14,675 bases of DNA from Ramlibacter sp. (GTDB taxonomy: Bacteria > Pseudomonadota > Gammaproteobacteria > Burkholderiales > Burkholderiaceae_C), in contig JANXVP010000473.1 of assembly GCA_025351615.1 (NCBI GenBank), positions 1 through 14,675 of the forward strand. Reading direction: 5' to 3'. Positions 409 to 14,550 of the stretch are shown here, piece after piece. The stretch's first letter is position 1. Each line of letters begins with the position of its first letter. The notes beneath the pieces are model-generated. The model did no database searches. It had not been told where the DNA came from and saw only the letters and a program-made list of their open reading frames with translations. Position numbers and translations under genes: made by a program.

Positions 409-2346
409 TCACTCGGCCCCCGTCCCAGACGTGGCCTGACTGCCGGGCGTGGCAGCGGGCAGGAAAGCGTCGGTGAAGCAGGCATCTTCCCCCAGGCCCT
501 GTGCCATGAATGCCGGCACGGCCGCCTCGACCAATTTGAGAGAACCGCAGACGTAAACCTCGTAGCCTGTCAGGTCGCCGAAGTCGGCCAGCATGGCCTC
601 ATGCACCCGGCCGACGCGGCCGTTCCAGGCATCCTGAGGCTGGGGATGGGAGAGCACCGGAACCACCTGGAAATTGGCATGCTGGCGCTGCCAGCCTTCC
701 ACCAGATCGAGCAGGTACAGGTCCTGCCGCTGTCGCCCACCCCAGTACAGCCGCATCGGCCGCTGCACGCCGCGGTGGAAGGCGTCCTGGAGGATGCTCT
801 TGACCGGCGCGAAACCGGTCGTCCGGGCGACGAACAGGATGGGGCGGGTGCTGTCCTGCAGCACGAAGCTGCCCAGCGGCCCCTCGAAGCGCAGCGTGTC
901 GCCCAGGCGCATGCCCTGGAACACGTGGCTGGTGAAGCGCCCGCCAGGGATGCGCCCCACCTGCAGCTCGATCTGGGCGTTTTCGTTCGGCGGATTGGCG
1001 AACGAGAACGCCCGCCGTTGGCCGTCGTCCAGCAGGATGTTGATGTACTGGCCCGCGCGGAAGGCAATCGACCGGTTGTCGGGCAGTGCGACCAGCACCC
1101 GCATCACATCGGGAGCAAGAAGTTCCAGCGCCACCACGCGGCCCGTGTGCACCGCGGCACCGGCGCCGACCCCCGCCGGCGACTCGACCTCGATCACCAC
1201 GTCGCCCACCGGCAAGGCACAGCACAGCAGCGCCTTGCCCTGTGCCTTGAGCGCATCGGGCAAGGCGCTGCGCTGGTAAGGCCGGTGCTCGACGCTACCT
1301 TGCGTGACGCGGCAAAGGCACATGCTGCAGCCGCCGTTGCGACACTCGTAGGGCAAAGCCAATCCCACGCGCAGTCCCGCTTCCAGCAGTGTCTCGCCTT
1401 CGCGCAGCAGGAGCTGGGTCTCGGACCCGTCGGCGCCGTGCACTACCGCCCGGGACTGGCGTTTTTGTCTACGTCCGAACTTTGGTGGCCACCACGGCAA
1501 CATGACCAGCAATGCGGTACCGCCAGCGGCCAGCACCCACACCTGGCCAAGCGGCCGTCCGTTGACCAGCGGCAGCAGCGCCAGGTAGAACCAATCGAGC
1601 TGCAGGCTTTGTACGGCGGTGCCAAGGTCGGCCGCACCGCCCTGGCTCAGCACCGGCCGGGCTAGCGAGAGCACCAGCAGGGCCGCCAACAGGCTCCAGC
1701 CGATGCGTCTGGGCGGGACCGTGCGCGCCTTGGGCACGCGCTGCACGTGCACCATCATCATCAGCAACACCAGCAGAGGCAGGCCGATGTGAACAAACGA
1801 CAGCAGCGAAAAGAAACGGTCGCCGACGCTGGCGGGATGGATGAAGTTGCGCATCAGCGTGCCGCCGAAGCTGGGCAGCCAGTCCAGCCACTCGAAACTC
1901 GCGACGGTCACGAACTGCGCCAGGCGGTCCCAGGGCAGCATGAAGCCGTTGATCCCGGACGCATAGACCAGCCAGATCAGCGCCACGCCAGTGATCCAGG
2001 AGAACCAGCGGAAGCCATGGTATTGGTCGAAGGCGAAATGCCGCAGCAGGTGCACCACCATGGTGACCACCATCGCGTCCGAGGCGTAGCGGTGGACACT
2101 GCGCATGATGCCGCCGGCAAACCACTGGCCGTGCGTCAGCGCCTCGACCGACAAGTAGGCCTCGGCGACCCCGGTCTCGAAGAAGGCGTACAGGTACAGC
2201 CCGCTCGCACCGACCACCCAGAACAGGAAAAAGCTGATCGCGCCCAGGTGGTACAGCGGGTTCAGCCGGTCCCCGAAAGCGGCATTGAACAGCGCCTCCA
2301 TGCGCATGAACAGCCACTGCAGCAGCGATTGCAGCCGTTTCAGCAT
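409..2346 (-). CDS. Cytochrome b / [2Fe-2S] ferredoxin / FAD-NAD(P) reductase fusion protein
   Basis: A 645-aa protein with three redox modules. Residues 1-205 are a cytochrome b/b6 N-terminal domain. Its heme ligand pairs have the diagnostic 14-residue spacing: His85/His99 and His186/His200. Residues 213-288 add two helices resembling the start of b6f subunit IV, with LDWF (250-253 region) where the quinol-site PEWY motif should be. Residues 300-390 are a plant-type [2Fe-2S] ferredoxin: Cys335, Cys340, Cys343 and Cys375 or 376. Residues 398-628 are a ferredoxin-NADP reductase-type domain: RAFS (445-448) for FAD, TGFAP (510-514), VCGS (599-602) and a terminal DAF. The expected path is NAD(P)H to FAD to [2Fe-2S] to b hemes and then to quinone or an oxidoreductase partner; this is inference. 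The ATG at 2346 overlaps the upstream stop by 7 bases. An upstream in-frame extension was rejected because it lies inside the preceding gene. Confidence 0.9.
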   Translation of the reverse strand: MLKRLQSLLQWLFMRMEALFNAAFGDRLNPLYHLGAISFFLFWVVGASGLYLYAFFETGVAEAYLSVEALTHGQWFAGGIMRSVHRYASDAMVVTMVVHLLRHFAFDQYHGFRWFSWITGVALIWLVYASGINGFMLPWDRLAQFVTVASFEWLDWLPSFGGTLMRNFIHPASVGDRFFSLLSFVHIGLPLLVLLMMMVHVQRVPKARTVPPRRIGWSLLAALLVLSLARPVLSQGGAADLGTAVQSLQLDWFYLALLPLVNGRPLGQVWVLAAGGTALLVMLPWWPPKFGRRQKRQSRAVVHGADGSETQLLLREGETLLEAGLRVGLALPYECRNGGCSMCLCRVTQGSVEHRPYQRSALPDALKAQGKALLCCALPVGDVVIEVESPAGVGAGAAVHTGRVVALELLAPDVMRVLVALPDNRSIAFRAGQYINILLDDGQRRAFSFANPPNENAQIELQVGRIPGGRFTSHVFQGMRLGDTLRFEGPLGSFVLQDSTRPILFVARTTGFAPVKSILQDAFHRGVQRPMRLYWGGRQRQDLYLLDLVEGWQRQHANFQVVPVLSHPQPQDAWNGRVGRVHEAMLADFGDLTGYEVYVCGSLKLVEAAVPAFMAQGLGEDACFTDAFLPAATPGSQATSGTGAE

Positions 2347-3788
2347 CGCGCCGCTTGCAGAGCGACGCCCGCAGCAGCGGGGCGGCGCATGGCGCGCAGC
2401 ACGACCACGACGAACAGCAGGCCGCCGACGATCGCGATCGCGCCGCCCAGGCCCATCAGGCCCATGCCGGCGATCTCGGCCGGGCTGCGCAGCACCTGCT
2501 CGGCGCCGGCGACCTTGCGCTGCACACCATAGCCGCCCGACCAGACGAGGCCCAGGATGTGCATCAGCTGGCCGGCCGCGTACAGCCACGGTTGCCCGCG
2601 GGCCAGCCGGCCTTGGGGCGCGCGATAGCCCAGCGCGGGGAGCAACTTGTAGACCAGGCCCATCAGCGCCAGGGTCACGCCGACGATGCAGCCATGGTAG
2701 TGGGCGGGAATGCGCACATTGCTGCCGTTGATAAAGATGCCGATCACGCCCCCCGCGGCGAACAGCGCCATTGAGGAGAGCAGCGCGGCGCGCAGTGGCC
2801 GGGCCACGGCGTCCGCGCGCGGCGCGGTGCACAGCGCGAACACCACCGCCAGGCCGATCGGCACGATCGCAACGCCGCCGCCCAGCCGCATGGCCCAGGT
2901 CAGCAAGGCGCGATGCTCGACCGAGGCGATGTCGTGCGCCAGGTAGGCGTAGGGCGTGACGAACACGCTGGCCAGCGCGAGCGCGAACATCAGCGTCGTC
3001 ACACGCGGACTGAGCGGGACGCGCGCGCCGCATTCGCCCGCCAGCCACAACCACGCGACCAGCATCAACAAAGTCCAGGTGAACTGCAGCGCATGCCCGC
3101 CGCCCCAGAACAGAATCTCGTAATAGGCCTTGCCGTTGAGGGTCGAAGGCAACGCCGCATACGACCAGGCGAAGGCCAGCAACGCGATGGCCGTCGCCAC
3201 CGCCGCGCAACTCAGGCCGAAACGCAGCGCGCCGGAGCCATCGAAATCGAAGCCCAGCTTGGGCGCGTTGAGCAGGCTCAGCAGCACCAGCAGGCCCACG
3301 CCGACGGCGAACACCAGCAAGCCCAGGATGAACAGCGGCACGGTGAGCACCGGAATGTAGTTAGCCATGATGGCCTCACCGCCGCCAACGAAGGCAGACA
3401 GTGCCATCGCGGCCGCGCCGGCGCTGGCCAACCCCAGTGCCACCCAGCCCCAGCCCAGGCGCCGGGGCGACCCGTTCAGGCTCCACAGCATGCCTGCCAG
3501 CGCCAGGAACCAGACCAGCACGGACAGATCCACATGAACCACAAGTGCGACGTGAAAGAGATGGGCGACCGGCAGCAGCTGGTTCAGGCCGGGCGTGCGC
3601 GACAACACCAGCAACACCGAAAACAGGCCCGAGCCGATCAAGGCGGTTAGCCCCAGCCACAGCCAGCCGCGGGCGAGCTCCAGGCGAGCGTCAACGGGCA
3701 CGGCGAGCCTGTACTCGACGCCCGAGGGGATTGGCGACAGCGCGAGACCGATCGGCGGCGCAGGAAAAATTGCGGGCGAGGCGCTCAT
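2340..3788 (-). CDS. Divergent heme-copper oxidoreductase subunit I (NO reductase-like/cbb3-like)
   Basis: A 482-aa polytopic protein with about 12 hydrophobic helices. It aligns by eye with the CtaD-like protein of the same operon: NYIPVL...P (143-151) in helix III, His85 in helix II (low-spin heme), GGGH with His232 in helix VI, and PAHYHG with His363/His365 in helix X (high- and low-spin heme ligands). The active site is unusual. Helix VII has AHD (His285-Asp286) where the paralogue has AHH, and the position four after His232 is Phe236, not Tyr (oxidases) or Glu (cNOR). It may belong to one of the non-canonical NO reductase branches or be a cbb3-like relative; it is unlikely to be an ordinary oxidase. 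Its start overlaps the upstream stop as ATGA, and its end overlaps the cytochrome b fusion, suggesting a shared complex. No subunit of CcoO, CcoP or NorC type is adjacent. Confidence 0.8.
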   Translation of the reverse strand: MSASPAIFPAPPIGLALSPIPSGVEYRLAVPVDARLELARGWLWLGLTALIGSGLFSVLLVLSRTPGLNQLLPVAHLFHVALVVHVDLSVLVWFLALAGMLWSLNGSPRRLGWGWVALGLASAGAAAMALSAFVGGGEAIMANYIPVLTVPLFILGLLVFAVGVGLLVLLSLLNAPKLGFDFDGSGALRFGLSCAAVATAIALLAFAWSYAALPSTLNGKAYYEILFWGGGHALQFTWTLLMLVAWLWLAGECGARVPLSPRVTTLMFALALASVFVTPYAYLAHDIASVEHRALLTWAMRLGGGVAIVPIGLAVVFALCTAPRADAVARPLRAALLSSMALFAAGGVIGIFINGSNVRIPAHYHGCIVGVTLALMGLVYKLLPALGYRAPQGRLARGQPWLYAAGQLMHILGLVWSGGYGVQRKVAGAEQVLRSPAEIAGMGLMGLGGAIAIVGGLLFVVVVLRAMRRPAAAGVALQAARC

Positions 3789-4288
3789 GACAAGGTGATC
3801 CCTCCTTTTTCCGGGTCGAAGTCGATGACCAGGATCTGCGCGGGCTTGAGGTCCACCTGCGCATCGCGGATGTACTTGAACGGCCCCGGAGCGGCCTTGT
3901 CTTTCAGGCGCACAGCGATCCGGTGCGCCCCGGCCGGCACCTGCAGGCGGTGGTAGACCGACGATGGGCCGTCGCGCGAAAGGCCCGAAGGCGCGGCGAC
4001 TTGCCGGTACACCGTGACGCCGTCGAGGTCGACCTCGATCGTGACGGCTGACCGTTCCCGTTCGCACTTCATGGGGGTCCGCATGTTGGGCGCCAGTTTC
4101 GCGAGTTCGTCGGCGCTGAAAGGCCGGCAATCGGCGACCCGCTGACCATGGTGGATAAAGCTGACCTTGAGCACCGCCTGGTCCGCGAGCAGCGGCCGGT
4201 AAACCGGCCAGCCGGAGAAGACGCCGATAAAAAGCGCGAACAGGCCGTACAGCAACACCTGGCCCGACCCGGCGAGGACCCGATTCAT
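3785..4288 (-). CDS. Unknown membrane-anchored periplasmic protein of the oxidoreductase operon
   Basis: A 167-aa protein not recognised as a named family. One hydrophobic helix (about 9-26) is followed by a soluble domain that should lie in the periplasm. The domain has two cysteines (Cys54, Cys75), a paired His46-His47, and a beta-rich second half ending in VIDFDPEKGG (154-163). It starts as ATGA on the stop of sco and ends as ATGA on the start of the second subunit I, so translation is coupled to both. Position right after SCO/SenC invites comparison with the orf1 of norS-norY-senC-orf1 clusters, and a role in metal delivery or as an accessory subunit is possible. Both are inference from place only. 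A longer start at 4336 was rejected because it would overlap sco by 52 bases. Confidence 0.8.
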   Translation of the reverse strand: MNRVLAGSGQVLLYGLFALFIGVFSGWPVYRPLLADQAVLKVSFIHHGQRVADCRPFSADELAKLAPNMRTPMKCERERSAVTIEVDLDGVTVYRQVAAPSGLSRDGPSSVYHRLQVPAGAHRIAVRLKDKAAPGPFKYIRDAQVDLKPAQILVIDFDPEKGGITLS

Positions 4289-5151
4289 GTTCGGGCGCTC
4301 AGCGAGGCGCGGCGTGCACTGCGTCGCGAGCGCCATTCGCCGAGGAGGTATAAGGCCACCGCCAGAATAAAGGTCAAGCCACCCGCGGCTTCCAGCGCCA
4401 GCGCGTAGTCAACGCGGTAGCGGCCCGTCACCGGGTCGTACACCGTGCACAGCAGCCGGATCTGGTCGAAGACGTCGTCCAGCCGAACGCGCTGCGGCAG
4501 CGGCGAGCCGATCAGCAACTGCTTCATCGGCTCGCCCAACGCATCCGCGTCCACGCGATCGCCATAGACCTGGCGCACGATGCGCCCCTGCGCGTCGACC
4601 AGGGAAACCTGCAGCACATGGTCGAAGCCTGCCGGAGTGGCCTGGTAGAGGAAACCGAAGTCCCGCGTGAGTGGCTGCACGATCCGCGCGGGCGGGCTGA
4701 GAAAATCCCAGTTCGGCTGGCTGATGCGATGCTGCGCCGCGAAGGCCTTGAGCGCCTGCGGCGAGTCGGCCGGCTGGTTGAAGCCAATGCTGACCACGTT
4801 GAACTGATTGCTGCCGAAGCGGTCGTGCAAGGCGCGCACGGTCTCGTCCAGCGAGCGCGTGGTGGTCGGGCAGACCTGGAAGCAGCCGGTGTAGATGAAG
4901 CTCACGAGCAAGGGCTTGCCGCGGTAGGAGACCAGCCGCACCGGCCGTCCTTCGCGGTCCAGCAAGGTGTAGTCACCGATGCTGCGGCCCAGCACCGTCT
5001 GGCTGGCGCGGATGGCGGCTTTCTGGTCGAGCCCGGGCGGGCGCGGTGCGTCCTCCTGGGCCCGCAGCGCCTGCGGCTGTAACAAGGCGCCGGCCAGCCA
5101 CAACATGGCCGTCAACTTGGCGAGGGTACCGGCCGGTTTCAGGAGGCGCAT
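4285..5151 (-). CDS. senC: SCO1/SenC-family copper chaperone with C-terminal anchor
   Basis: A 288-aa protein that delivers copper to, or reduces, the CuA site of heme-copper oxidoreductases. It has an N-terminal signal or anchor (about 8-32), then a thioredoxin-like domain with the copper motif TGCFQVCP (Cys90, Cys94) and the third ligand His178 in FDHVL. A C-terminal hydrophobic helix (about 253-271) precedes a basic tail, which would place the copper site in the periplasm. LLCTVYDPVTGRY (233-245) is an extra segment, with Cys235, typical of the longer SCO relatives. The gene follows ctaB by 19 bases and serves the adjacent CuA subunit. The start was chosen at the ATG before MRLLKPAG, giving a normal signal; the in-frame extension upstream would overlap ctaB by 44 bases. 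Confidence 0.92.
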   Translation of the reverse strand: MRLLKPAGTLAKLTAMLWLAGALLQPQALRAQEDAPRPPGLDQKAAIRASQTVLGRSIGDYTLLDREGRPVRLVSYRGKPLLVSFIYTGCFQVCPTTTRSLDETVRALHDRFGSNQFNVVSIGFNQPADSPQALKAFAAQHRISQPNWDFLSPPARIVQPLTRDFGFLYQATPAGFDHVLQVSLVDAQGRIVRQVYGDRVDADALGEPMKQLLIGSPLPQRVRLDDVFDQIRLLCTVYDPVTGRYRVDYALALEAAGGLTFILAVALYLLGEWRSRRSARRASLSART

Positions 5152-5170
5152 GGCGTACTGCCCCGGCCTG

Positions 5171-6073
5171 TCAGCGCAGCAGGGCGTCGAGGGTCGCGGC
5201 GACCAGCAGCGCACTCAGCTGGACCAGTGAGGCGAAGAACGAGCCTATCGCGGTGGCGCGGTCCGGCTTGCTGGCGAGCAGCCACGACTTGTGCAGGAAT
5301 TGCACGCCGCCGCCGATCGCACCCACGGCATAGATCGGCCCGGCGCCGAACGCCAGTGGCAGCAGCGACGCCGCCACCAGGGCCGCCGTGCTCACGAAGA
5401 CGATGCGCGCCGCACGCTCGGTCCCGACCACGACCGGCAGCATGGGCACCCCCGCCGCGGCGTAATCGGCGCGGTTGGCGATGGCAAGGCTCCAGAAATG
5501 GGGCGGCGTCCAAAGAAACAGGACCAGAGCCAGCAACAGCGGCAAGGGACCCGGCGTGGGGTTGGCAGCCGCTGCGCCGGCCAGCACCGCGAAGCTGCCG
5601 GCCAGCCCGCCGACCACGATGTTGAGCGCGCTGCGCCGCTTCAGCCACACGGTGTAGACCACCGCGTAAAAGAAGGCGCCCAGGAACACGTACATCGCCG
5701 CGACAGGATTCAACACGAACCACGCTGCCGCGACGGCGCCGGCCAGCAGCAGGCCGATCAGCAGCAGCCAGCCCGGATGATGCGGCAGTGCGCCGGTGAC
5801 GAAGGCGCGGCCTCGCGTGCGGGCCATCAGGCGGTCGCTTTCGTGCTCGGCGTACTGGTTGAAAGCGCCGGCGCTGGCGGACGCCACCAGCACCGACAGC
5901 GCGAGCACCAGCACCTGCGCGAGCTCCAGCGACGCTCCTGGGGTGACCGCCAGGCCGACCAGTGCAGTGACCATGATCAGCATGCCGATGCGCAGCTTGA
6001 ACAGGGAAAGGACCTCGCGGGTCAGCTGCCGGGCGGTGCGGCCACGATCGCGCCCTAATGTGATCGTGCTCAT
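5171..6073 (-). CDS. ctaB: Protoheme IX farnesyltransferase (heme O synthase)
   Basis: A 300-aa UbiA-superfamily membrane prenyltransferase that adds farnesyl to heme B to make heme O. The first prenyl-diphosphate motif is N72-x3-E76-x3-D80 followed by RLMARTRGR (81-89); Glu at the first acidic position is common in this family. The second region includes WTPPHFWSLA (188-197) and DYAAAGVPMLP (203-213). About nine hydrophobic helices are present and the length is normal. A GGGAG ribosome binding site precedes the ATG, 14 bases after the CtaD-like gene. With the divergent ctaA it allows heme O and A synthesis, implying that at least one enzyme in the operon uses a farnesylated heme. Confidence 0.96.
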   Translation of the reverse strand: MSTITLGRDRGRTARQLTREVLSLFKLRIGMLIMVTALVGLAVTPGASLELAQVLVLALSVLVASASAGAFNQYAEHESDRLMARTRGRAFVTGALPHHPGWLLLIGLLLAGAVAAAWFVLNPVAAMYVFLGAFFYAVVYTVWLKRRSALNIVVGGLAGSFAVLAGAAAANPTPGPLPLLLALVLFLWTPPHFWSLAIANRADYAAAGVPMLPVVVGTERAARIVFVSTAALVAASLLPLAFGAGPIYAVGAIGGGVQFLHKSWLLASKPDRATAIGSFFASLVQLSALLVAATLDALLR

Positions 6074-6087
6074 GGCGCTCCCTGGCG

Positions 6088-7818
6088 TCAGCTCAGGCCC
6101 CACAGCTGCCCGAGGTACTTCCAGTTGATGAAGTAGTACAGCACGAAGGTCACCAGGAACAGCATCGCCATCACGAAGGTGCCGGGCGCCGCGAAGCCGG
6201 CTGAACCATAAGTCTGAACGACGGCGGCCGGGGCCGTGGGCGGAATTGGCGTGAAGGTCGCACGCACGGTTCCGGTATCGAGCCTCTTGCCCCAGAGGAT
6301 GGAGCCCACCGTGACGTAGATATAGAGCCCGCCGCCAACGATCGCCGACACACCCGCGATGCCCACCAGTCCCATCATCAGGTAAGCCGCACCAGGCCAC
6401 TCATAGCCCAGCGCCGCTCCGCTCAGGGCCATGTCCCAGTGCCTGCGCGACACGCCAAGAGTGCCCGCACCCATCATCACCAGGCAGAAGAAATACATCG
6501 ACAGGCCGAACAGATAGGGCTGCAGCCTGGCCAGGCCCGGCACGATCATCTCACGGCGAAACAGCACCGGGATGAGAAAGTACGTCAGGGCCATGAACGA
6601 CAGCGTCGTGCCGACCACGACCGTGGCGTGAAAATGGCCTGGCACATAAATGGTGTTGTGGATCAGCATGTTCAGCTGCTCGGTTCCCATCATCACGCCC
6701 GAGATGCCGCCGAGAAAACCGAACCCGATCAGGGAGATGAACATGCCCGAGAACACCGGGTTGCCCCAAGGCGCCTTGCGCAGCCATTCGAACAGCCCGC
6801 GGTTGTAGCCTTTCTGGCGCTGGGCGACTTCAATGGCCCCCGGAATGGTCAGGCCATGGATCATCGAGGCGAGCACCGCGAAATACATGAAGTAGCTGGT
6901 GTTGACGATCTTCCATCCGGTCGACAGCCCCGGGTCGGACAGCAGGTGGTGGGCGGCAGCGAGCTGCAGGAACAGGATGTAGAGCAGGAACGCGCCGCGG
7001 CTCACCCGCTCGGACATCGGTTTCGCGCCAAAGGCAATCGCGGCCACGGCGTACCAGATAGAGATGTGCGCCGCGACGTTGACCTGCTGCGAAGAATGGC
7101 CGAAGGCCCACCAGATGGTGCGGTAGACCAGCGGATCGACCTCCTTGACGATGCCCACGGACATCAGGAAAGTCGGAATCAGGATGATCGCACCGGAGAC
7201 GATGGTGAACACGGCGATGATTGCGGCGGTGATGGCGCCGAATGTCACCAGCGGCACCGAACCCTGGTAGGTCCGGTCACGCCGGGCGATCACCAAGGTG
7301 CCGAAGAAAACGAAGCACCCCATGAGCGCACCGACGGCGAACAGGATCAGCCCGAGATAGAACGATGGCGCTGCCATCATCGGCACGTAGGACGTCATCA
7401 TCACGCTGGAGCCGCCCTGGAACACCGCGACGTTGTTGGTGACGGCGCCGATCAGCATCAAGGCGAACGCAAGCCACGCAATTTTTGGCGTGGCAATCCG
7501 GCAGCGCAGCAGCGTCGAGGAGCAGAAGTACAGCAAGGCAATTTCGAAGAAGATGATCCAGAAGATCAGCATGTCGATGCCGTGGGCGGTGAGCACCAGA
7601 TAGAAGGTGTCGGCAGCGAGCCAGTGCACTGCCGGCCAGCGTGTGAGCACCACGCCGATGGCCAGCAGTCCGCCTACCAGCAGCGCGACCACCGCCGCGA
7701 CGGCATTGACGATCATCAGGCGCTCGGCGTGCGCCTCGAATTGCAGGCCGGAACGCGGGCAGGTCCGGTAGGTCGTCGCGACGCCGTTCGGCCCCGCCGT
7801 CAGAGTTGTTGCAGACAT
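6088..7818 (-). CDS. Heme-copper oxidoreductase subunit I lacking the active-site Tyr (sNOR/NorY-like)
   Basis: A 576-aa catalytic subunit with about 13 helices. Heme ligands are His79 (TAHGI, helix II) and His395/His397 (VPGHFHATV, helix X). The copper (or iron) B ligands are His241 (helix VI) and His290-His291 (AAAHHLLSDPG, helix VII). Helix VI reads WAFGHSSQQVN: the residue four after His241 is Gln245, where A- and B-type oxidases carry the His-cross-linked Tyr (HPEVY, HPIVY). Loss of that Tyr is a feature of NO reductases in this superfamily. With the CuA subunit before it and SenC after it, the best guess is the sNOR (norS-norY) branch; automated annotation would probably say cytochrome c oxidase subunit I. 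A GGGAG ribosome binding site precedes the ATG. Confidence 0.88.
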   Translation of the reverse strand: MSATTLTAGPNGVATTYRTCPRSGLQFEAHAERLMIVNAVAAVVALLVGGLLAIGVVLTRWPAVHWLAADTFYLVLTAHGIDMLIFWIIFFEIALLYFCSSTLLRCRIATPKIAWLAFALMLIGAVTNNVAVFQGGSSVMMTSYVPMMAAPSFYLGLILFAVGALMGCFVFFGTLVIARRDRTYQGSVPLVTFGAITAAIIAVFTIVSGAIILIPTFLMSVGIVKEVDPLVYRTIWWAFGHSSQQVNVAAHISIWYAVAAIAFGAKPMSERVSRGAFLLYILFLQLAAAHHLLSDPGLSTGWKIVNTSYFMYFAVLASMIHGLTIPGAIEVAQRQKGYNRGLFEWLRKAPWGNPVFSGMFISLIGFGFLGGISGVMMGTEQLNMLIHNTIYVPGHFHATVVVGTTLSFMALTYFLIPVLFRREMIVPGLARLQPYLFGLSMYFFCLVMMGAGTLGVSRRHWDMALSGAALGYEWPGAAYLMMGLVGIAGVSAIVGGGLYIYVTVGSILWGKRLDTGTVRATFTPIPPTAPAAVVQTYGSAGFAAPGTFVMAMLFLVTFVLYYFINWKYLGQLWGLS

Positions 7819-7831
7819 GGTCGTGCTCCCG

Positions 7832-8371
7832 CTATTTGACGTAGATGCGACCGACCATCGTGTGATGGTTGATTCCGCAATATTCGTTGCACACGACGGA
7901 GAACGTCCCCGACTGATTCGGCGTGACCTTGACGACGTGCTCGTAGCCGGGCACCACCTGGATATTGATGTTGCTGGGCTGCAGCGAGAAGCCGTGGTTG
8001 TAGTCCAGGGAGGACAGGTGCAGCTTGTAGGTCTTGTCTTTTTCCAGCTCCAGAATCGGCCACCAGCTCCACAGGCGCGCGATCATGTACACATCGCTGC
8101 CTTCGGGAGGCGCCACCACCGGAATCTTCTGGTCGGTCTCGGTACGCACGGTGTACTTGTCCACCACCGCCTGCGCCTTGGCCGAGTACTTTTCGGGTGT
8201 CGTCTTGTAGGTTTCGGTGGAGAGGTTCTGTCGCCCGTAAGCGTGCCAATAGATCATCATGAAGAACATCACCATGCACCAGACGAAGGCGATGGCGATC
8301 CACGTGCCCTCGACACGGTCCAGGGGATGCTTCCACCACAGTCGTTCGGCGGGGGGGAGGATTGCGCTCAT
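7832..8371 (-). CDS. coxB: CuA-containing subunit II (ba3/NorS-like)
   Basis: A 179-aa protein with one N-terminal helix (about 23-42) and a periplasmic cupredoxin domain, the compact build of B-type (ba3) subunit II. All CuA ligands are present: His126 (DYNHGF), then CNEYCGINHHTM with Cys161, Glu163, Cys165, His169 and Met172. The aromatic patch WSWWPILELE (101-110) is where electrons usually enter from cytochrome c. It passes electrons to the subunit I encoded 13 bases downstream. No cytochrome c domain is fused and no subunit III gene follows. NorS of sNOR is also a CuA protein, so the domain does not separate oxidase from NO reductase. Confidence 0.93.
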   Translation of the reverse strand: MSAILPPAERLWWKHPLDRVEGTWIAIAFVWCMVMFFMMIYWHAYGRQNLSTETYKTTPEKYSAKAQAVVDKYTVRTETDQKIPVVAPPEGSDVYMIARLWSWWPILELEKDKTYKLHLSSLDYNHGFSLQPSNINIQVVPGYEHVVKVTPNQSGTFSVVCNEYCGINHHTMVGRIYVK

Positions 8372-8385
8372 GGCGGGCGTCTTTC

Positions 8386-8544
8386 TTATTTGGCAACCGG
8401 AATCGTGAGAATGTCGATGACACCCCACAGCGTGTAGACCACCATCGGGATGAGAACCCCCAGGAACAGCAGCAGGAACGGGTTGTCCAGGAGCTGCTGC
8501 ATCAGTGGGACCTTCTCGGCGGCGGCTGTGTCCTGGTCGCTCAT
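8386..8544 (-). CDS. Small single-helix subunit of the heme-copper complex
   Basis: A 52-aa protein, first gene of the operon. It has an acidic start (MSDQDTAAAEK), an amphipathic stretch around LMQQLLDNP, then one hydrophobic helix (about 23-48) and a short tail ending PVAK. AGGAGA at 8552-8557 lies seven bases before the ATG and is the best ribosome binding site of the operon. It is 14 bases from the subunit II gene. By size and place it resembles the subunit IIa of ba3-type oxidases, which packs against subunits I and II; this is inferred without sequence identity. Its small size makes it easy to miss in annotation. Confidence 0.8.
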   Translation of the reverse strand: MSDQDTAAAEKVPLMQQLLDNPFLLLFLGVLIPMVVYTLWGVIDILTIPVAK

Positions 8545-8611
8545 GGTGGTATCTCCTGTTGTTGTCAGTTCTGACGCCAGGCAACTTTGCCCACACTAGG
8601 CCAGCATGGAT

Positions 8612-8625
8612 TTGACTTGAATCAA
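8612..8625. promoter_or_regulatory. FNR/Dnr/Anr-type box between the operon and ctaA
   Basis: TTGAC-TTGA-ATCAA matches the FNR/CRP-family consensus TTGAT-N4-ATCAA in nine of ten fixed positions with correct spacing. Its centre is about 74 bases before the ATG of the minus-strand operon and about 64 before the chosen ctaA ATG, so either could carry a site near -41.5. No strong -10 was recognised on either strand, which fits an activator-dependent promoter. The regulator (FNR, Anr, Dnr or NNR) cannot be told from the site. Confidence 0.65.
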
Positions 8626-8682
8626 AGTTCGACGCTTTCGGCATGCATCAACAGCGAACAGTTCGCCCGGACGGCGGCTAAC

Positions 8683-9645
8683 ATGCGCTGCATGATCCGA
8701 TCGGACGACCGCATGGCCTGGCTGCGCCGGCTGGCGTGGCTTTGCGCGGTGCTGGTGCTGGCCGTCACCAGCCTGAGCGCTTTCATCCGCCTGTCCAAGG
8801 CAGGACTCGGCTGCTCACCCTGGCCGCAGTGTTACCTGCAGAACCTGGCCCCTGGCGATCGTGGCCTGCCGCCCTTGGTGGGCGAAGCCGTGGCCACGGC
8901 ACGGGTTGCGCATCGCGTCCTTGCGGTGACAACCCTGTTGCTTGTCATCGCGATGCTGATGACCACCGTGACGCAAGGGGCGATGACGCAGCGGCGGCAA
9001 GGCCGGCAGGTCTTCGCGCTGTTGATGCTCGCCTTGTTCCTTGCGGTGCTGGGCCGTTGGACCGCAACCGCGCGTGTTCCCGCCGTCACCCTCGCTAACT
9101 TGCTGGGCGGCTTCGCCATGTTCGCAATCAGCTGGCGCCTTGCAGTCAATCCAGCGCGGACCTTGACTGCGACCCTGGCGCAGCGCCGGCTGGTTGCCTG
9201 GGCCTGGTTGGGCGCGGCGCTGCTGGTCACGCAAATCACGCTTGGAGGCATGGTCGCCGCCGCCCGCTTCGGGCTGAGTTGTCCCCAGCTTTGGGTTTGC
9301 GATCTCACCCAGGCAGGCTGGGATGCTTTCAATCCATGGCGTGAACCGGGGTTCGATGCGGCGCAACCTGGCAACCCGGCCGGCGCGTTGCTACACGTTG
9401 TCCATCGTCTGGGCTATCTGGTACTTGCCGGCGTGCTGCTGGCGCTGGCGGTCGCGGCATGGCGCAGCGGCAAGCGCGCTGCCGGGCTTGCCCTGCTCGT
9501 TCTGCTGCTGGTGCAGGGGGCTTTGGGCATCGCGCTCGTTGCGGGTGGCTTGCCCCTCGCGGTTGCGCTCGCCCACAACGTCGCGGCGGCGCTGTTGCTG
9601 GCGGTGGTTCTGAGCTTGACCGACAACGCCAGGTCTTTGCCCTGA
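8683..9645 (+). CDS. ctaA: Heme A synthase (CtaA/COX15 family)
   Basis: A 320-aa membrane enzyme oxidising heme O to heme A. It shows the internal duplication of the family. Cysteine pairs are Cys44/Cys50 (GCSPWPQC) and Cys200/Cys206 (SCPQLWVC). The catalytic-type Glu68 and His77 lie in GEAVATARVAHR; His241 (HVVHR) and His298 (AHN) belong to the second half. In helix 3 the usual His appears to be Asn139 (LANLLGG). Eight hydrophobic helices are expected. It is divergent from the oxidoreductase operon and shares its control region. The start is uncertain: ATGs at 8683, 8692 and 8713 are all possible. I chose 8683 for the CGGCGG five bases upstream; a TTG at 8587 would run through the FNR-type box. 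Confidence 0.93.
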   Translation: MRCMIRSDDRMAWLRRLAWLCAVLVLAVTSLSAFIRLSKAGLGCSPWPQCYLQNLAPGDRGLPPLVGEAVATARVAHRVLAVTTLLLVIAMLMTTVTQGAMTQRRQGRQVFALLMLALFLAVLGRWTATARVPAVTLANLLGGFAMFAISWRLAVNPARTLTATLAQRRLVAWAWLGAALLVTQITLGGMVAAARFGLSCPQLWVCDLTQAGWDAFNPWREPGFDAAQPGNPAGALLHVVHRLGYLVLAGVLLALAVAAWRSGKRAAGLALLVLLLVQGALGIALVAGGLPLAVALAHNVAAALLLAVVLSLTDNARSLP

Positions 9646-9675: not shown

Positions 9676-9732
9676 CTGACAGCCTGCCGCTGCGCGAGGG
9701 AGCAGCGGAAAATCCAGGACTTCACCTGTCAG
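9676..9732. other. Composite inverted repeat between convergent ctaA and tlpA-like gene
   Basis: Nested stems: CTGACAG (9676-9682) with CTGTCAG (9726-9732), CCTG (9683-9686) with CAGG (9715-9718), and CCGCTGC (9687-9693) with GCAGCGG (9702-9708) around an eight-base loop. It lies just after the ctaA stop and overlaps the last bases of the thioredoxin gene. It may stop transcription from both sides, but neither strand has a U-tract, so it is not a classic terminator. Confidence 0.35.
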
Positions 9733-10567
9733 ACGGCGGTGTTGGAGCCGGTACAGAGTCCCTGTACGACAAAGTCTGGAGTTTTTCCGTCAGCGTGGCG
9801 GATGAAAGCTCGCCAGTCCGGGTGCTCACCAGTTGTCCACTGGCGTCGAAGAACAGCGTCGTCGGAAGCCCGCGCTGGTTGAAAGCTGCGAGAGCCTGGC
9901 CCTTGCTGTCCAACAAGACGTTGCGCAGCGGCAGCTTGCGGGCTTCAAGCCACCCGCTGACCCGCTCGCGGGACTCGCCTTGATTCAGGAAGACGAAGTT
10001 CACTGACGGGTTTGCCAGTTGCGCCTGGTGCAGGACCGGCATTTCGCGCACGCATGGCGGGCACCAGGTCGCCCAGAGATTCACCACCGTGGGCTTTCCC
10101 TGAAACTCCGCGAGGTCGATCGTGCCGCCTTGCAGGCTCGCCAGGGACAGCGATGGAAGCTTTTGGGTAAGGTCGGGCACGGACAGCGCCAGCACGCCGG
10201 CACCCCAGATCGTGGTGCCGGCCAGCAACGCGGGCAGCAGCGCTTTTCGCAGCGCCGGCCGCTTGAACTGCCGCCCAAGTGCGAAAAGCCACGCGGCGAC
10301 AAAGCCCGCCAGCGGCCTCCATCCCCCGTCCCGGATGTCGAGGACGCTCAGGGGTGACGCCTGGTAGCTGGTGGTGTATTGCAGAACGAACGCCAGCCGG
10401 GCCACGATGAGCCCGACCGCGAGGGTTTGCCAGAGCACGGGCTCAACCTCGATGCCTGACTTGCGTCCTGCCCATTTGCCCACAGACGTGGCCGCCACGA
10501 CTGCAGCAAACATGACAAGCAGTGAGACAGGCAGGACGAGCGGGCCGATTTGAAGAACATTGGTCAC
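9722..10567 (-). CDS. TlpA-like membrane-anchored thiol-disulfide oxidoreductase
   Basis: A 281-aa protein. Residues 1-130 are hydrophobic with helices near 8-28, 45-63, 83-97 and 110-129. The segment GLIVARLAFV...DIRDGGWRP resembles prolipoprotein diacylglyceryl transferase (Lgt) helices but lacks the rest of that enzyme. Residues 131-265 form a thioredoxin domain of the TlpA/ResA/DsbE type: WATWCPPC (Cys169, Cys172), REMPVL, and cis-Pro235 in GLPTT. The domain should face the periplasm and reduce disulfides, as in preparation of apocytochromes or CuA sites; that it serves the adjacent CuA protein is inference. The start is a GTG at 10567, 24 bases after a small hypothetical gene. It converges on ctaA. 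Confidence 0.9.
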   Translation of the reverse strand: MTNVLQIGPLVLPVSLLVMFAAVVAATSVGKWAGRKSGIEVEPVLWQTLAVGLIVARLAFVLQYTTSYQASPLSVLDIRDGGWRPLAGFVAAWLFALGRQFKRPALRKALLPALLAGTTIWGAGVLALSVPDLTQKLPSLSLASLQGGTIDLAEFQGKPTVVNLWATWCPPCVREMPVLHQAQLANPSVNFVFLNQGESRERVSGWLEARKLPLRNVLLDSKGQALAAFNQRGLPTTLFFDASGQLVSTRTGELSSATLTEKLQTLSYRDSVPAPTPPSDR

Positions 10568-12317: not shown

Positions 12318-12959
12318 ATGGGCAGTTCCCCTAAAAAACCCTGGGCCAGTATCATCCGGCCCGAGGCCAGGAAACCGGCCACGGCCAGCAAAGCCGCCCC
12401 TGCGGGACCGGTCGCTGAACCTGAGGCGGGCAATACGCTGTCGCCTTATCAGCACGGCGACCCGATCCCCAAGGCAGACACCGTGGAAAAAGACACCGAC
12501 ACCAGCTGGGCGCTGTGGTCGGATCTGGCGGCCAGCGAAAACCGCGGTTTTGCGGACACGGCTCCTCCTACCGACACGATGAAATTTTCCGCCGAGGAGC
12601 GCAGCTACGCCGCGACGGTCCCCGCTGCCCTGCAGGCTGCTGCGCCAAAGGCGCCGAGGCGGCGTGAGCTGTCGATCGTGGAGGTGATGGTCGAGGCGCG
12701 CAGGAACAACCGGGTCTGCCCGCAACCTGCCAGATGGCAGCAACTCTACGAGATGCTGCCCGAGAAAAAGCAGTCCGGCGCAGCTTGGGAACCGCCGCCG
12801 CCCCTCGTCGATGCCGCATGGCAGGGAACGCCGTCAATCCCCAAGCGGATGTGCTTTCGGGAACACATCGAGTGGGCCGCGACGCACGACTGCCTGCAGC
12901 AGGTCTTCACCTTCATGAAGAGCCTGTCTGAAAGCGAATGGCATCACATGGGGGAGTAG
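12318..12959 (+). CDS. Hypothetical protein, conserved C-terminal part
   Basis: A 213-aa soluble protein without signal or membrane segments. The first half (1-115) is rich in Ala, Pro, Lys and Thr and probably disordered. The second half looks folded: RRELSIVEVMVEARRNN (114-130), then RWQQLYEMLP, and a C-terminal FREHIEWAATHDCLQQVF region ending SEWHHMGE. From memory, similar C-termini occur in uncharacterised proteins of Burkholderiales, but I cannot name a family. AAGGAAAG lies upstream of the ATG. The gene ends five bases from the convergent sirB2-like gene. Confidence 0.8.
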   Translation: MGSSPKKPWASIIRPEARKPATASKAAPAGPVAEPEAGNTLSPYQHGDPIPKADTVEKDTDTSWALWSDLAASENRGFADTAPPTDTMKFSAEERSYAATVPAALQAAAPKAPRRRELSIVEVMVEARRNNRVCPQPARWQQLYEMLPEKKQSGAAWEPPPPLVDAAWQGTPSIPKRMCFREHIEWAATHDCLQQVFTFMKSLSESEWHHMGE

Positions 12960-12964
12960 GGCGC

Positions 12965-13351
12965 TCATCGGGCGAACAGCCCGAGGGGATTCTTGCTGAT
13001 CGCCACCGAGACGATCCAGCCGAAGCTGGCCAATGCCGCCATCCATGCAGCGGCGCGCAACGGCCTCGGCAGCCCTGGTCGCAAGGCCACCACGCCGAGC
13101 GAGATGTACACCACCAGGCCGATGATTTTCGCGGCCAGCCACGGAGCCGCTGTGGGTGTCAGATGCAGGGTCCAGGCCAGCCAGAGCGCCGACAGCAGCA
13201 GCACCGAATCGATGACGTGCGGCACACTTCGGGCGGCGCGCCCGCGCACCCAGGTGGCGCCACGCAGCGATGCGATTCCGCGGACGAAGAAGCCTACGAA
13301 AGACAGCACGACCGCGCTCTGGTGAAGGGTCTTGACGGTCAGGTAATCCAT
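12965..13351 (-). CDS. SirB2-family membrane protein
   Basis: A 128-aa protein with four hydrophobic segments (about 10-28, 43-62, 68-88 and 97-118), the size and build of the SirB/SirB2 family. LHQSAVVLSFVGFFVRG (9-25) and PHVIDSVLLLSALWLAW (44-60), with conserved His10 and His45, are typical. The biochemical role is not established; the name comes from invasion-gene regulation in Salmonella. It starts two bases after the nnrS stop and so belongs to the nsrR-nnrS unit, which suggests a link to nitric oxide response or to heme/quinone membrane chemistry. Confidence 0.85.
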   Translation of the reverse strand: MDYLTVKTLHQSAVVLSFVGFFVRGIASLRGATWVRGRAARSVPHVIDSVLLLSALWLAWTLHLTPTAAPWLAAKIIGLVVYISLGVVALRPGLPRPLRAAAWMAALASFGWIVSVAISKNPLGLFAR

Positions 13352-13353
13352 GC

Positions 13354-14550
13354 TTACCCGGGTTTGCCATCCAGCCGCGCGCGCGTAAGCACCGGCCAGT
13401 AACGCAGCGCGTACAGTCCAAACCCCGCAGACCACAGTGCTGCGGAACACAGCACTGCGTGGATCGTGAAGGCAGGAACGGCGAGCGGAACCAGGACGCG
13501 TACCAGCGCCGCGGCAATGACGAGCGCATAGCAGGCCACATCCGCCCGGTCGGCGCGCATCGGGCGACCGGTATGGCCCTTGGCGGTCCGGGTCATCATG
13601 CCGATGATCAGGCCACCCGCCGCACCGACCGTCAGGGCATGGACCGCACTCGACGACGGCACCAGCCCGGACTCCGACATGGCGCGCAGCGCGAGATGCA
13701 CCGGGATCCAGAAGTAGCCGATGTGCAGCACCCAGACCAGCGGTGTCCGCCAGGTCTTCCATGGCTGCCAGCCCAGCCAGCGCGCAAAATGCGCCGTCGC
13801 CGCCGTGGCGGCGATCGCGATCAGCCGCGTGCCGTGCACCTGGAGCGCGTCGGCCAGCAGCAATGCCAGCACCAGGCCCAACGCCGTCATTTCGAGGGCC
13901 GGCTGGCGGGCCGCCTTCGCGCCCGGCACCCCGTTGTTGGTGAACATGGGGACGACCCGGCCGGCCATCACCGCCATGATGAAGAGCAACCCATCCAGCG
14001 CCGACTGGATGCCGACCCACCCGGGAAAGCGCAGCACGTGCAGGTTGTCCAGGTGGACCGTGAGTTCGGCCGCCGACATCAGCACCAGCAGGACCACGAA
14101 AAAGTAGTTGCGCCGGTTGCCCGCCGCGACAAAGGCCCGCCCCAGAGCGAGGGATGCCGCCAGCGGAAAACAGGCATTGACGATCGCGGCCGTCCAGCCG
14201 AAGGGCGTCAGGACCAATACCCGGCCCGCCACCCAGAGCAGCGCCAGTGCCGCCAGCGGCGCGCCCGTGGGCGTGGGCTGGTTGGACCAGTTGCGCCCGG
14301 CCGTGAACAGGAAGCCGACGACGACCGCCATGGCAAAGCCGAACAGCATCTCGTGCGCGTGCCATAGCGGGCCCTGCAGGTAAGGGCGGCCCAGCCAGCC
14401 GGCGAACTGCAGCGCCCAAAGCGGAATCGACAGCGCGGCACAGATGCTGGCCAGCAGGTAGAAGGGGCGAAACCCGAGTTGCCACAACGCAAAGCCCGGC
14501 GCTGCCGCTGCAGCGTGTCGTGGCTCGACGATCTGGATCAACTTTGTCAT
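13354..14550 (-). CDS. nnrS: NnrS-family heme/copper membrane protein
   Basis: A 398-aa polytopic protein of normal family length, about 12 helices. Family landmarks: GFRPFYL (26-32), WHAHEMLFGF (63-72) with His64, His66 and Glu67, LDNLH (167-171), GRVVPMFTNNGV (197-208), HALTVGAAGG (304-313) and MTRTAKGHTGRP (319-330). NnrS binds heme and copper and protects cells from nitrosative stress; it appears with denitrification or NO-detoxification genes and is often under NsrR or NnrR control. Its ATG overlaps the stop of nsrR as ATGA, so the two are translationally coupled, with sirB2 just downstream. Confidence 0.96.
   Translation of the reverse strand: MTKLIQIVEPRHAAAAAPGFALWQLGFRPFYLLASICAALSIPLWALQFAGWLGRPYLQGPLWHAHEMLFGFAMAVVVGFLFTAGRNWSNQPTPTGAPLAALALLWVAGRVLVLTPFGWTAAIVNACFPLAASLALGRAFVAAGNRRNYFFVVLLVLMSAAELTVHLDNLHVLRFPGWVGIQSALDGLLFIMAVMAGRVVPMFTNNGVPGAKAARQPALEMTALGLVLALLLADALQVHGTRLIAIAATAATAHFARWLGWQPWKTWRTPLVWVLHIGYFWIPVHLALRAMSESGLVPSSSAVHALTVGAAGGLIIGMMTRTAKGHTGRPMRADRADVACYALVIAAALVRVLVPLAVPAFTIHAVLCSAALWSAGFGLYALRYWPVLTRARLDGKPG

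Follow-up and report, generated by a model that had tools for sequence, protein, structure and literature searches.

An eNOR-type operon of Ramlibacter sp. that also encodes a cytochrome b-reductase fusion and a subunit I paralogue without the CuB histidine pair

The window analyzed here is the whole stretch of 14,675 nucleotides of contig JANXVP010000473.1 (assembly GCA_025351615.1) from Ramlibacter sp., a member of the Burkholderiales. Eight co-directional genes on its minus strand, numbered g1 to g8, fill positions 409-8544 according to open reading frame (ORF) calls and start assignment. Their first half encodes a nitric oxide (NO) reductase that belongs by sequence to the eNOR type, and it is followed by a protein of 167 residues (g6), a second homologue of subunit I (g7; I* is our shorthand for g7 and its close relatives) and a fusion of cytochrome b with a reductase (g8). 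The eight genes are as follows.

8386..8544, minus strand: g1, a 52-aa protein with one hydrophobic stretch (ORF and start call; without a Pfam family)
7832..8371, minus strand: g2, subunit II with the CuA motif CNEYCGINHHTM (PF00116, COX2, over cut-off; scanned against Pfam with an upstream extension)
6088..7818, minus strand: g3, eNOR-type subunit I (Pfam COX1, 208 bits; ligand alignment)
5171..6073, minus strand: g4, CtaB heme O synthase (UbiA in Pfam; TIGR01473 at 250.8 bits, cut-off 210.3)
4285..5151, minus strand: g5, SCO/SenC copper chaperone (PF02630, SCO1-SenC, over cut-off; CFQVC read in the sequence)
3785..4288, minus strand: g6, a 167-aa protein (no Pfam match over cut-off)
2340..3788, minus strand: g7 (I*), a subunit I paralogue of heme-copper fold without the CuB His pair (COX1, 55 bits, cut-off 34.8)
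409..2346, minus strand: g8, a cytochrome b-reductase fusion (Cytochrome_B, Fer2, FAD_binding_6 and NAD_binding_1 in Pfam)

Gaps of 14, 13, 14 and 19 bases separate g1/g2, g2/g3, g3/g4 and g4/g5, while g5/g6, g6/g7 and g7/g8 overlap by 4, 4 and 7 bases, respectively. The first-pass annotation of the window had described such an eight-gene array, with gaps of at most 19 bases and the last four genes overlapping by 4-7, and the ORF and start calls bear it out. Since the same arrangement recurs across many genomes, the grouping is more than chance.

All six heme-copper His of g3 (H79, H241, H290, H291, H395 and H397) are invariant in seven aligned sequences. Four residues past the helix VI His, within the motif GHSSQQ, g3 carries Gln245, where the aligned ba3 oxidase has Tyr; GHSSQQ gave 88 matches across the scanned loci, some of which overlap. 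According to the part of PMC8756737 available to us, Gln at this diagnostic position denotes eNOR, Asn denotes sNOR, and Glu denotes cNOR and qNOR, and the available part of PMC8879329 reports eNOR, formerly ba3-a1, as an NO reductase using cytochrome c. Based on the six ligands and on Gln245 in place of Tyr, we assign the first half of the operon (CuA subunit II, subunit I, CtaB and SCO) by sequence to the eNOR-type NO reductases, and its substrate here would be NO, two molecules of which would yield N2O. A proton channel has been proposed for eNOR. The first-pass annotation had seen in these genes a CuA-type complex with CtaB and SenC for its maturation, which is confirmed, and the g3 signature together with the Pfam and NCBIfam matches places it in the eNOR group. 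As for other classes, an O2 reductase is disfavored for g3, because Gln replaces the Tyr of oxygen reductases, and Gln245 likewise separates g3 from sNOR (norSY), with its Asn, and from cNOR and qNOR, with their Glu.

The CuA motif was read in g2, directly upstream of g3, and tallied in relatives. Homologues of g1 are 56-73% identical and adjoin subunit II in 14 of 20 loci examined, and g1 is likely a small subunit of the CuA enzyme. By sequence, the best solved relatives of g3 are B-type/ba3 oxidases, and the Thermus ba3 oxidase is among the best solved matches both of g3 (by sequence) and of the g7 model (by Foldseek), but it has Tyr at the diagnostic position when aligned with g3. The Thermus enzyme has a full CuB site. 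With eNOR/ba3-a1, of the B family of heme-copper enzymes, the operon shares a CuA or cupredoxin subunit II and Gln for the active-site Tyr, as given in the available parts of PMC8756737 and PMC8879329, as well as an SCO gene, which sits in the ba3-a1 operon according to the available part of PMC6431628. It differs by its cytochrome b fusion, g6 and CuB-less paralogue, none of which is mentioned with eNOR in the portions of the literature consulted. The norSY-senC-orf1 cluster (sNOR) of ammonia oxidizers is similar in that NOR genes are clustered with SenC (available part of PMC4940428), but has Asn at the diagnostic position (available part of PMC8756737) instead of the Gln of g3.

The first 300 residues of g8 align with bc-type cytochrome b. 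Its heme b His (H84, H98, H185 and H199) are invariant in 11 sequences and agree with the genome's own bc1-type cytochrome b, the PVWY of which aligns with DWFY of g8 at the place of the PEWY-type Qo motif; matches of g8 to mitochondrial cytochrome b extend to the region of the Qo loop. The C-terminal half resembles BenC/MmoC reductases, with Fer2, FAD and NAD domains each over the Pfam cut-off, in agreement with the NAD(P)H input module of the first-pass annotation. Thus, g8 shares with bc1/b6f cytochrome b an N-terminal part with four heme His, but differs by its fused reductase domains, by DWFY versus PVWY and by its operon, in which neither a Rieske protein nor cytochrome c1 was found among the eight genes with Pfam and NCBIfam. 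Similarly, it has the [2Fe-2S], FAD and NAD domains of the BenC/MmoC-type ferredoxin-NADH reductases, but here they are fused to a membrane cytochrome b. The predicted model of g6 comprises one N-terminal helix and a beta-sandwich domain (pLDDT 94.6) and gave no Foldseek match at E 0.001. Two Cys of g6, C54 and C75, are invariant in an 18-row alignment, and no redox site is evident in the alignment or the model.

The overall fold of g7 is that of a heme-copper subunit I by Pfam (COX1 superfamily), by structure prediction and by Foldseek, whereas its ligand set is incomplete. We aligned 121 rows of g7 and relatives, three of which repeat another row, leaving 118 distinct. H84, H231, H362 and H364 are kept in 121/121 rows, so that the heme-ligand His of helix II and helix X (H84, H362 and H364) are all present. 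Of the three CuB His, only H231 of helix VI is kept, and the helix VII pair, which would fall 49/50 residues past the helix VI His as in eNOR, is lost: position 280, the first His of the pair, is never His (0/121), and position 281 is Tyr in 101, His in 14, Phe in 5 and Thr in 1 row (98, 14, 5 and 1 among the distinct rows). With the CuB His pair missing, a second catalytic branch is not supported, and a role of g7 as a second terminal reductase is improbable by its sequence. We take g7 to descend, probably, from a heme-copper subunit I, with the heme ligands retained and CuB gone, and would expect it to serve in electron transfer or assembly rather than as a second reductase.

Several further observations concern g7 and its relatives. 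PDB sequence searches with g7 and with the g7 profile gave no useful match. Another conserved residue is His409 of predicted helix XI, present in 119/121 rows at what is presumably not a heme-copper ligand position. Three distant paralogues (L053, L054 and L024) are 40-47% identical to g7; in L053 and L054 the second residue of the lost pair is His, and the stretch examined there has no eNOR. Genomes of other lineages encode I*-like proteins that lack the CuB His pair: three lie beside ctaA (L204, L219 and L221), and one (L212) is close to an oxidase operon that comes with an ABC transporter. Judged by sequence, such proteins may form a wider unnamed family.

We then surveyed 250 genomes of the window's taxonomic order and 398 genomes of its phylum, counts in which the genomes share ancestry and are not independent events. 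In the order sample, eNOR was detected in 19/250 genomes and a g7 match in 20/250, and the 19 close g7 matches fall in the same 19 genomes, spread over 13 families; the remaining match, in G145 (225 bits), is a distant paralogue only and was kept out of the close set. The window's family is represented in this sample by six further genomes, all without eNOR and without a g7 match; both occur in G592, a member of the family from the phylum sample. In 15/19 genomes (the window and 14 loci) eNOR and I* share one strand and are linked; for three others (G030, G126 and G170) the contigs are too short to show the linkage. The full-length cytochrome b-FNR fusion (>700 bits) is present in 18/19 eNOR genomes and missing from G011. 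G153, with no eNOR detected, has this fusion on a 4-kb contig together with SCO and g6.

A scan of genome contigs gave a set of named loci, the best 80 of 544 relatives, among them those of the cultured Ramlibacter lithotrophicus RBP-1 (L091) and Simplicispira lacusdiani (L101). SCO matches below 35% and subunit I matches below 45% identity were left out when the genes of these loci were assigned. eNOR and I* lie on one strand in 69/80; among the other 11, nine begin <300 bases from a contig end, and the last two are L130 and L158. L130 has CuA and CtaB matches and, beyond I*, only a 22% match to g3, and so would encode another oxidase. g6 is found in 78/80 loci and the FNR fusion in 72; the fusion gene lies downstream of I* in 54 of these, precedes it in 17 and is encoded on the opposite strand in 1. 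In 38 of the 80 loci ctaA stands upstream in divergent orientation and in 14 it lies just downstream; the test used showed none in 28.

A sister fusion accompanies the FNR type in most of these loci: a FlpD-type sequence is present in 75/80, and both kinds of fusion in 68/80. In L038 and L049 it consists of cytochrome b, 4Fe-4S and FlpD domains by Pfam (PF02662 in both), thus sharing the FlpD domain with MvhD/FlpD electron-transfer subunits but carrying it behind cytochrome b and 4Fe-4S domains. The cytochrome b-FlpD fusion was not found in the window's own genome, which is 91% complete. L113 (Castellaniella sp. S9) and L152 are reduced in a similar way and give no CtaB match.

The phylum sample holds eNOR in 30 and a g7-profile match in 60 of the 398 genomes. 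I* scores >450 bits in 28/30 eNOR genomes and 248 bits in G428, and is absent from G405, whose sole g7-profile match overlaps its own eNOR and which has a 3.5-kb contig with eNOR, CtaB and SCO. We searched for the cytochrome b fusions (E 1e-100 or better; 19 of the 22 listed genomes) in 30 genomes picked from the g7-profile and eNOR matches, leaving out the reductase-only matches of G258, G266 and G292. In this chosen set a fusion is present in 18/19 eNOR-positive versus 1/11 eNOR-negative genomes; the eNOR-negative exception, G465, has a 5-kb contig with two b/FlpD fusions, g6 and I*, without eNOR. Outside the window's order, nine eNOR operons were counted (a count that leaves out G153, G465 and G405), five of them from Magnetococcales. 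The order g1-II-I-CtaB-SCO-b/FlpD-g6 is seen in 7/9, and the parts lie apart in 2/9. Placement of I* was compared in 20 regions, of which 19 surround g7 matches in genomes of other lineages and one comes from G592; I* lies ~5 kb upstream of the eNOR operon on the same strand in G340 and inside the cluster in G443. Since the cytochrome b fusion and g6 are kept with eNOR in the other lineage and I* mostly lies elsewhere, the fusion and g6 look like constant eNOR partners and I* like something added and fixed within the window's order. The survey of co-occurrence that the first-pass annotation had called for thus finds the genes traveling together in the window's order (the same 19/250 genomes and the 69/80 loci above). 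Its view that the two halves belong together holds there and among the named relatives, where the counts speak against a consistent separation, but only partly in the other lineage, where g6 and the cytochrome b fusion stay and I* is mostly elsewhere.

Beyond the operon, the window contains the following features.

8587..9645, plus strand: ctaA/COX15, divergent from the operon (Pfam)
9722-10567, minus strand: TlpA-like thioredoxin, with an N-terminal stretch weakly matching LGT
12318-12959, plus strand: a 213-aa ORF without a Pfam family
12965-13354: SirB-family gene adjoining NnrS
13354-14550, minus strand: NnrS, a protein associated with NO metabolism (PF05940, 372 bits), ~5 kb from g1

Elsewhere in the genome, motif searches point to an aa3-like and a partial cbb3-like subunit I. 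A NirK-like protein with two cupredoxin domains and a cytochrome c motif at its C-terminus (L255, contig C582) scores under the TIGR02376 cut-off, and the NirS family gave one match over cut-off that covers 73 of 368 positions (29.2 bits) and one below. NnrS in the window and the NirK-like protein fit NO metabolism, without being proof of it.

Taken together, we consider it probable that the operon encodes an NO reductase of known type, which electrons would reach by a dedicated NAD(P)H/Fe-S-cytochrome b route, plus a CuB-less paralogue. The genes would specify a proteobacterial eNOR, the proteins that mature it and a membrane protein of its own through which electrons enter. In the window this entry protein would be g8, in which electrons would run from NAD(P)H through FAD and [2Fe-2S] to two hemes b; the next acceptor would be either quinone or the CuA enzyme itself. 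g6 would be a membrane-anchored, probably periplasmic partner, and g7 an electron carrier or assembly factor; the products may form one complex. The electron-entry cytochrome b would be exchangeable, the NAD(P)H version alone being left in the window. Several points weigh against this reading. NAD(P)H use by g8 is predicted from domain homology, and residue 507 of g8 (window 409-2346), in the nucleotide-binding motif VARTTGFAP, is Arg, unlike all 86 aligned relatives (Gly in 84, Thr in 2), which slightly lowers our confidence; the Arg may be a natural change or an assembly error. In G187, I* is nearby but on the opposite strand and so on a separate transcript, and in L158, I* and both fusions are present but the ~6 kb upstream of them give no eNOR match (the sequence covers 10 kb upstream of I*). 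In the phylum sample, 30/398 genomes have a g7-profile match, 23 of them >400 bits, with no eNOR detected, and I* is in none of the nine other-lineage eNOR operons.

Such variable placement would be explained if the genes were independent neighbors under one promoter, co-induced for example by NO stress, with eNOR fed by cytochrome c alone, g8 acting as a separate NAD(P)H:quinone reductase, and g6-g7 as other accessories. The CuA subunit II by itself accounts for electron entry into eNOR, for which cytochrome c use is reported in the available part of PMC8879329; a DWFY-bearing loop is retained in g8 where the Qo motif would be; and the FNR fusion changes sides of I* among the named loci. I* changes strand in G187, which slightly raises the likelihood of this explanation. 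However, the cytochrome b fusions and g6 track eNOR in two lineages, more tightly than shared regulation needs, and we regard this explanation as rather unlikely. Slightly more plausible, yet still on the unlikely side, is that g7, alone or together with g6, helps to assemble eNOR and other heme A enzymes by inserting heme or copper. I* relatives adjoin COX15/ctaA in L219 and L221 by Pfam and in L204 by reading, the I* of L212 is near SCO and genes resembling a CuA oxidase operon by reading, ctaA often lies close to the named loci as counted above, and g6 lacks an evident redox site. On the other hand, the His conserved in every g7 row suggest a heme protein and not a bare chaperone, nearby ctaA may just mark the use of heme A, and the 28/80 loci in which the test found no ctaA also speak against it.

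Two further possibilities give g7 a larger part. The first-pass annotation had proposed a branched chain that reduces NO and O2 through two catalytic heme-copper reductases, with cytochrome c driving one and NAD(P)H the other. The overlapping genes and the COX1 superfamily membership of g7 by Pfam and predicted fold are in its favor, and g7 is indeed a paralogue, but the absence of the first CuB-pair His from all 121 rows makes "two heme-copper subunits" an overstatement, and with Gln for Tyr in g3 also against the O2 branch, we find this model highly improbable. A quinone-independent supercomplex from NAD(P)H (or Fe-S/FlpD) to NO, in which the cytochrome b fusion sends electrons across the membrane, with the CuB-less subunit as a two-heme wire into the CuA of eNOR, is less remote though still distinctly doubtful; if true, I* would found a family of heme-copper subunits that serve purely as electron carriers.

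In the reading we favor, a known-type eNOR with its own electron input, the reductase is of a known kind, and it is the attached parts for which we found no description. No description of cytochrome b fusions with eNOR occurs in the available parts of PMC4940428, PMC8756737, PMC10734462, PMC8114936, PMC7787665, PMC8879329, PMC4013037 and PMC6431628, all from one open literature library; those parts name cytochrome c as the eNOR donor and mention no dedicated partner. Among the matches listed, 120 of 6811 in one listing and only those tallied, the database names for proteins of these kinds are cbb3-type oxidase subunit I or hydrogenase iron-sulfur subunit, names that may mislead surveys. With its heme ligands but without a copper site, I* would represent a natural experiment on the purpose of CuB. 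Exchangeable cytochrome b modules, NAD(P)H-flavin in one and 4Fe-4S/FlpD in the other, would wire NO reduction, and with it the formation of N2O, directly to the redox pool of the cytoplasm.

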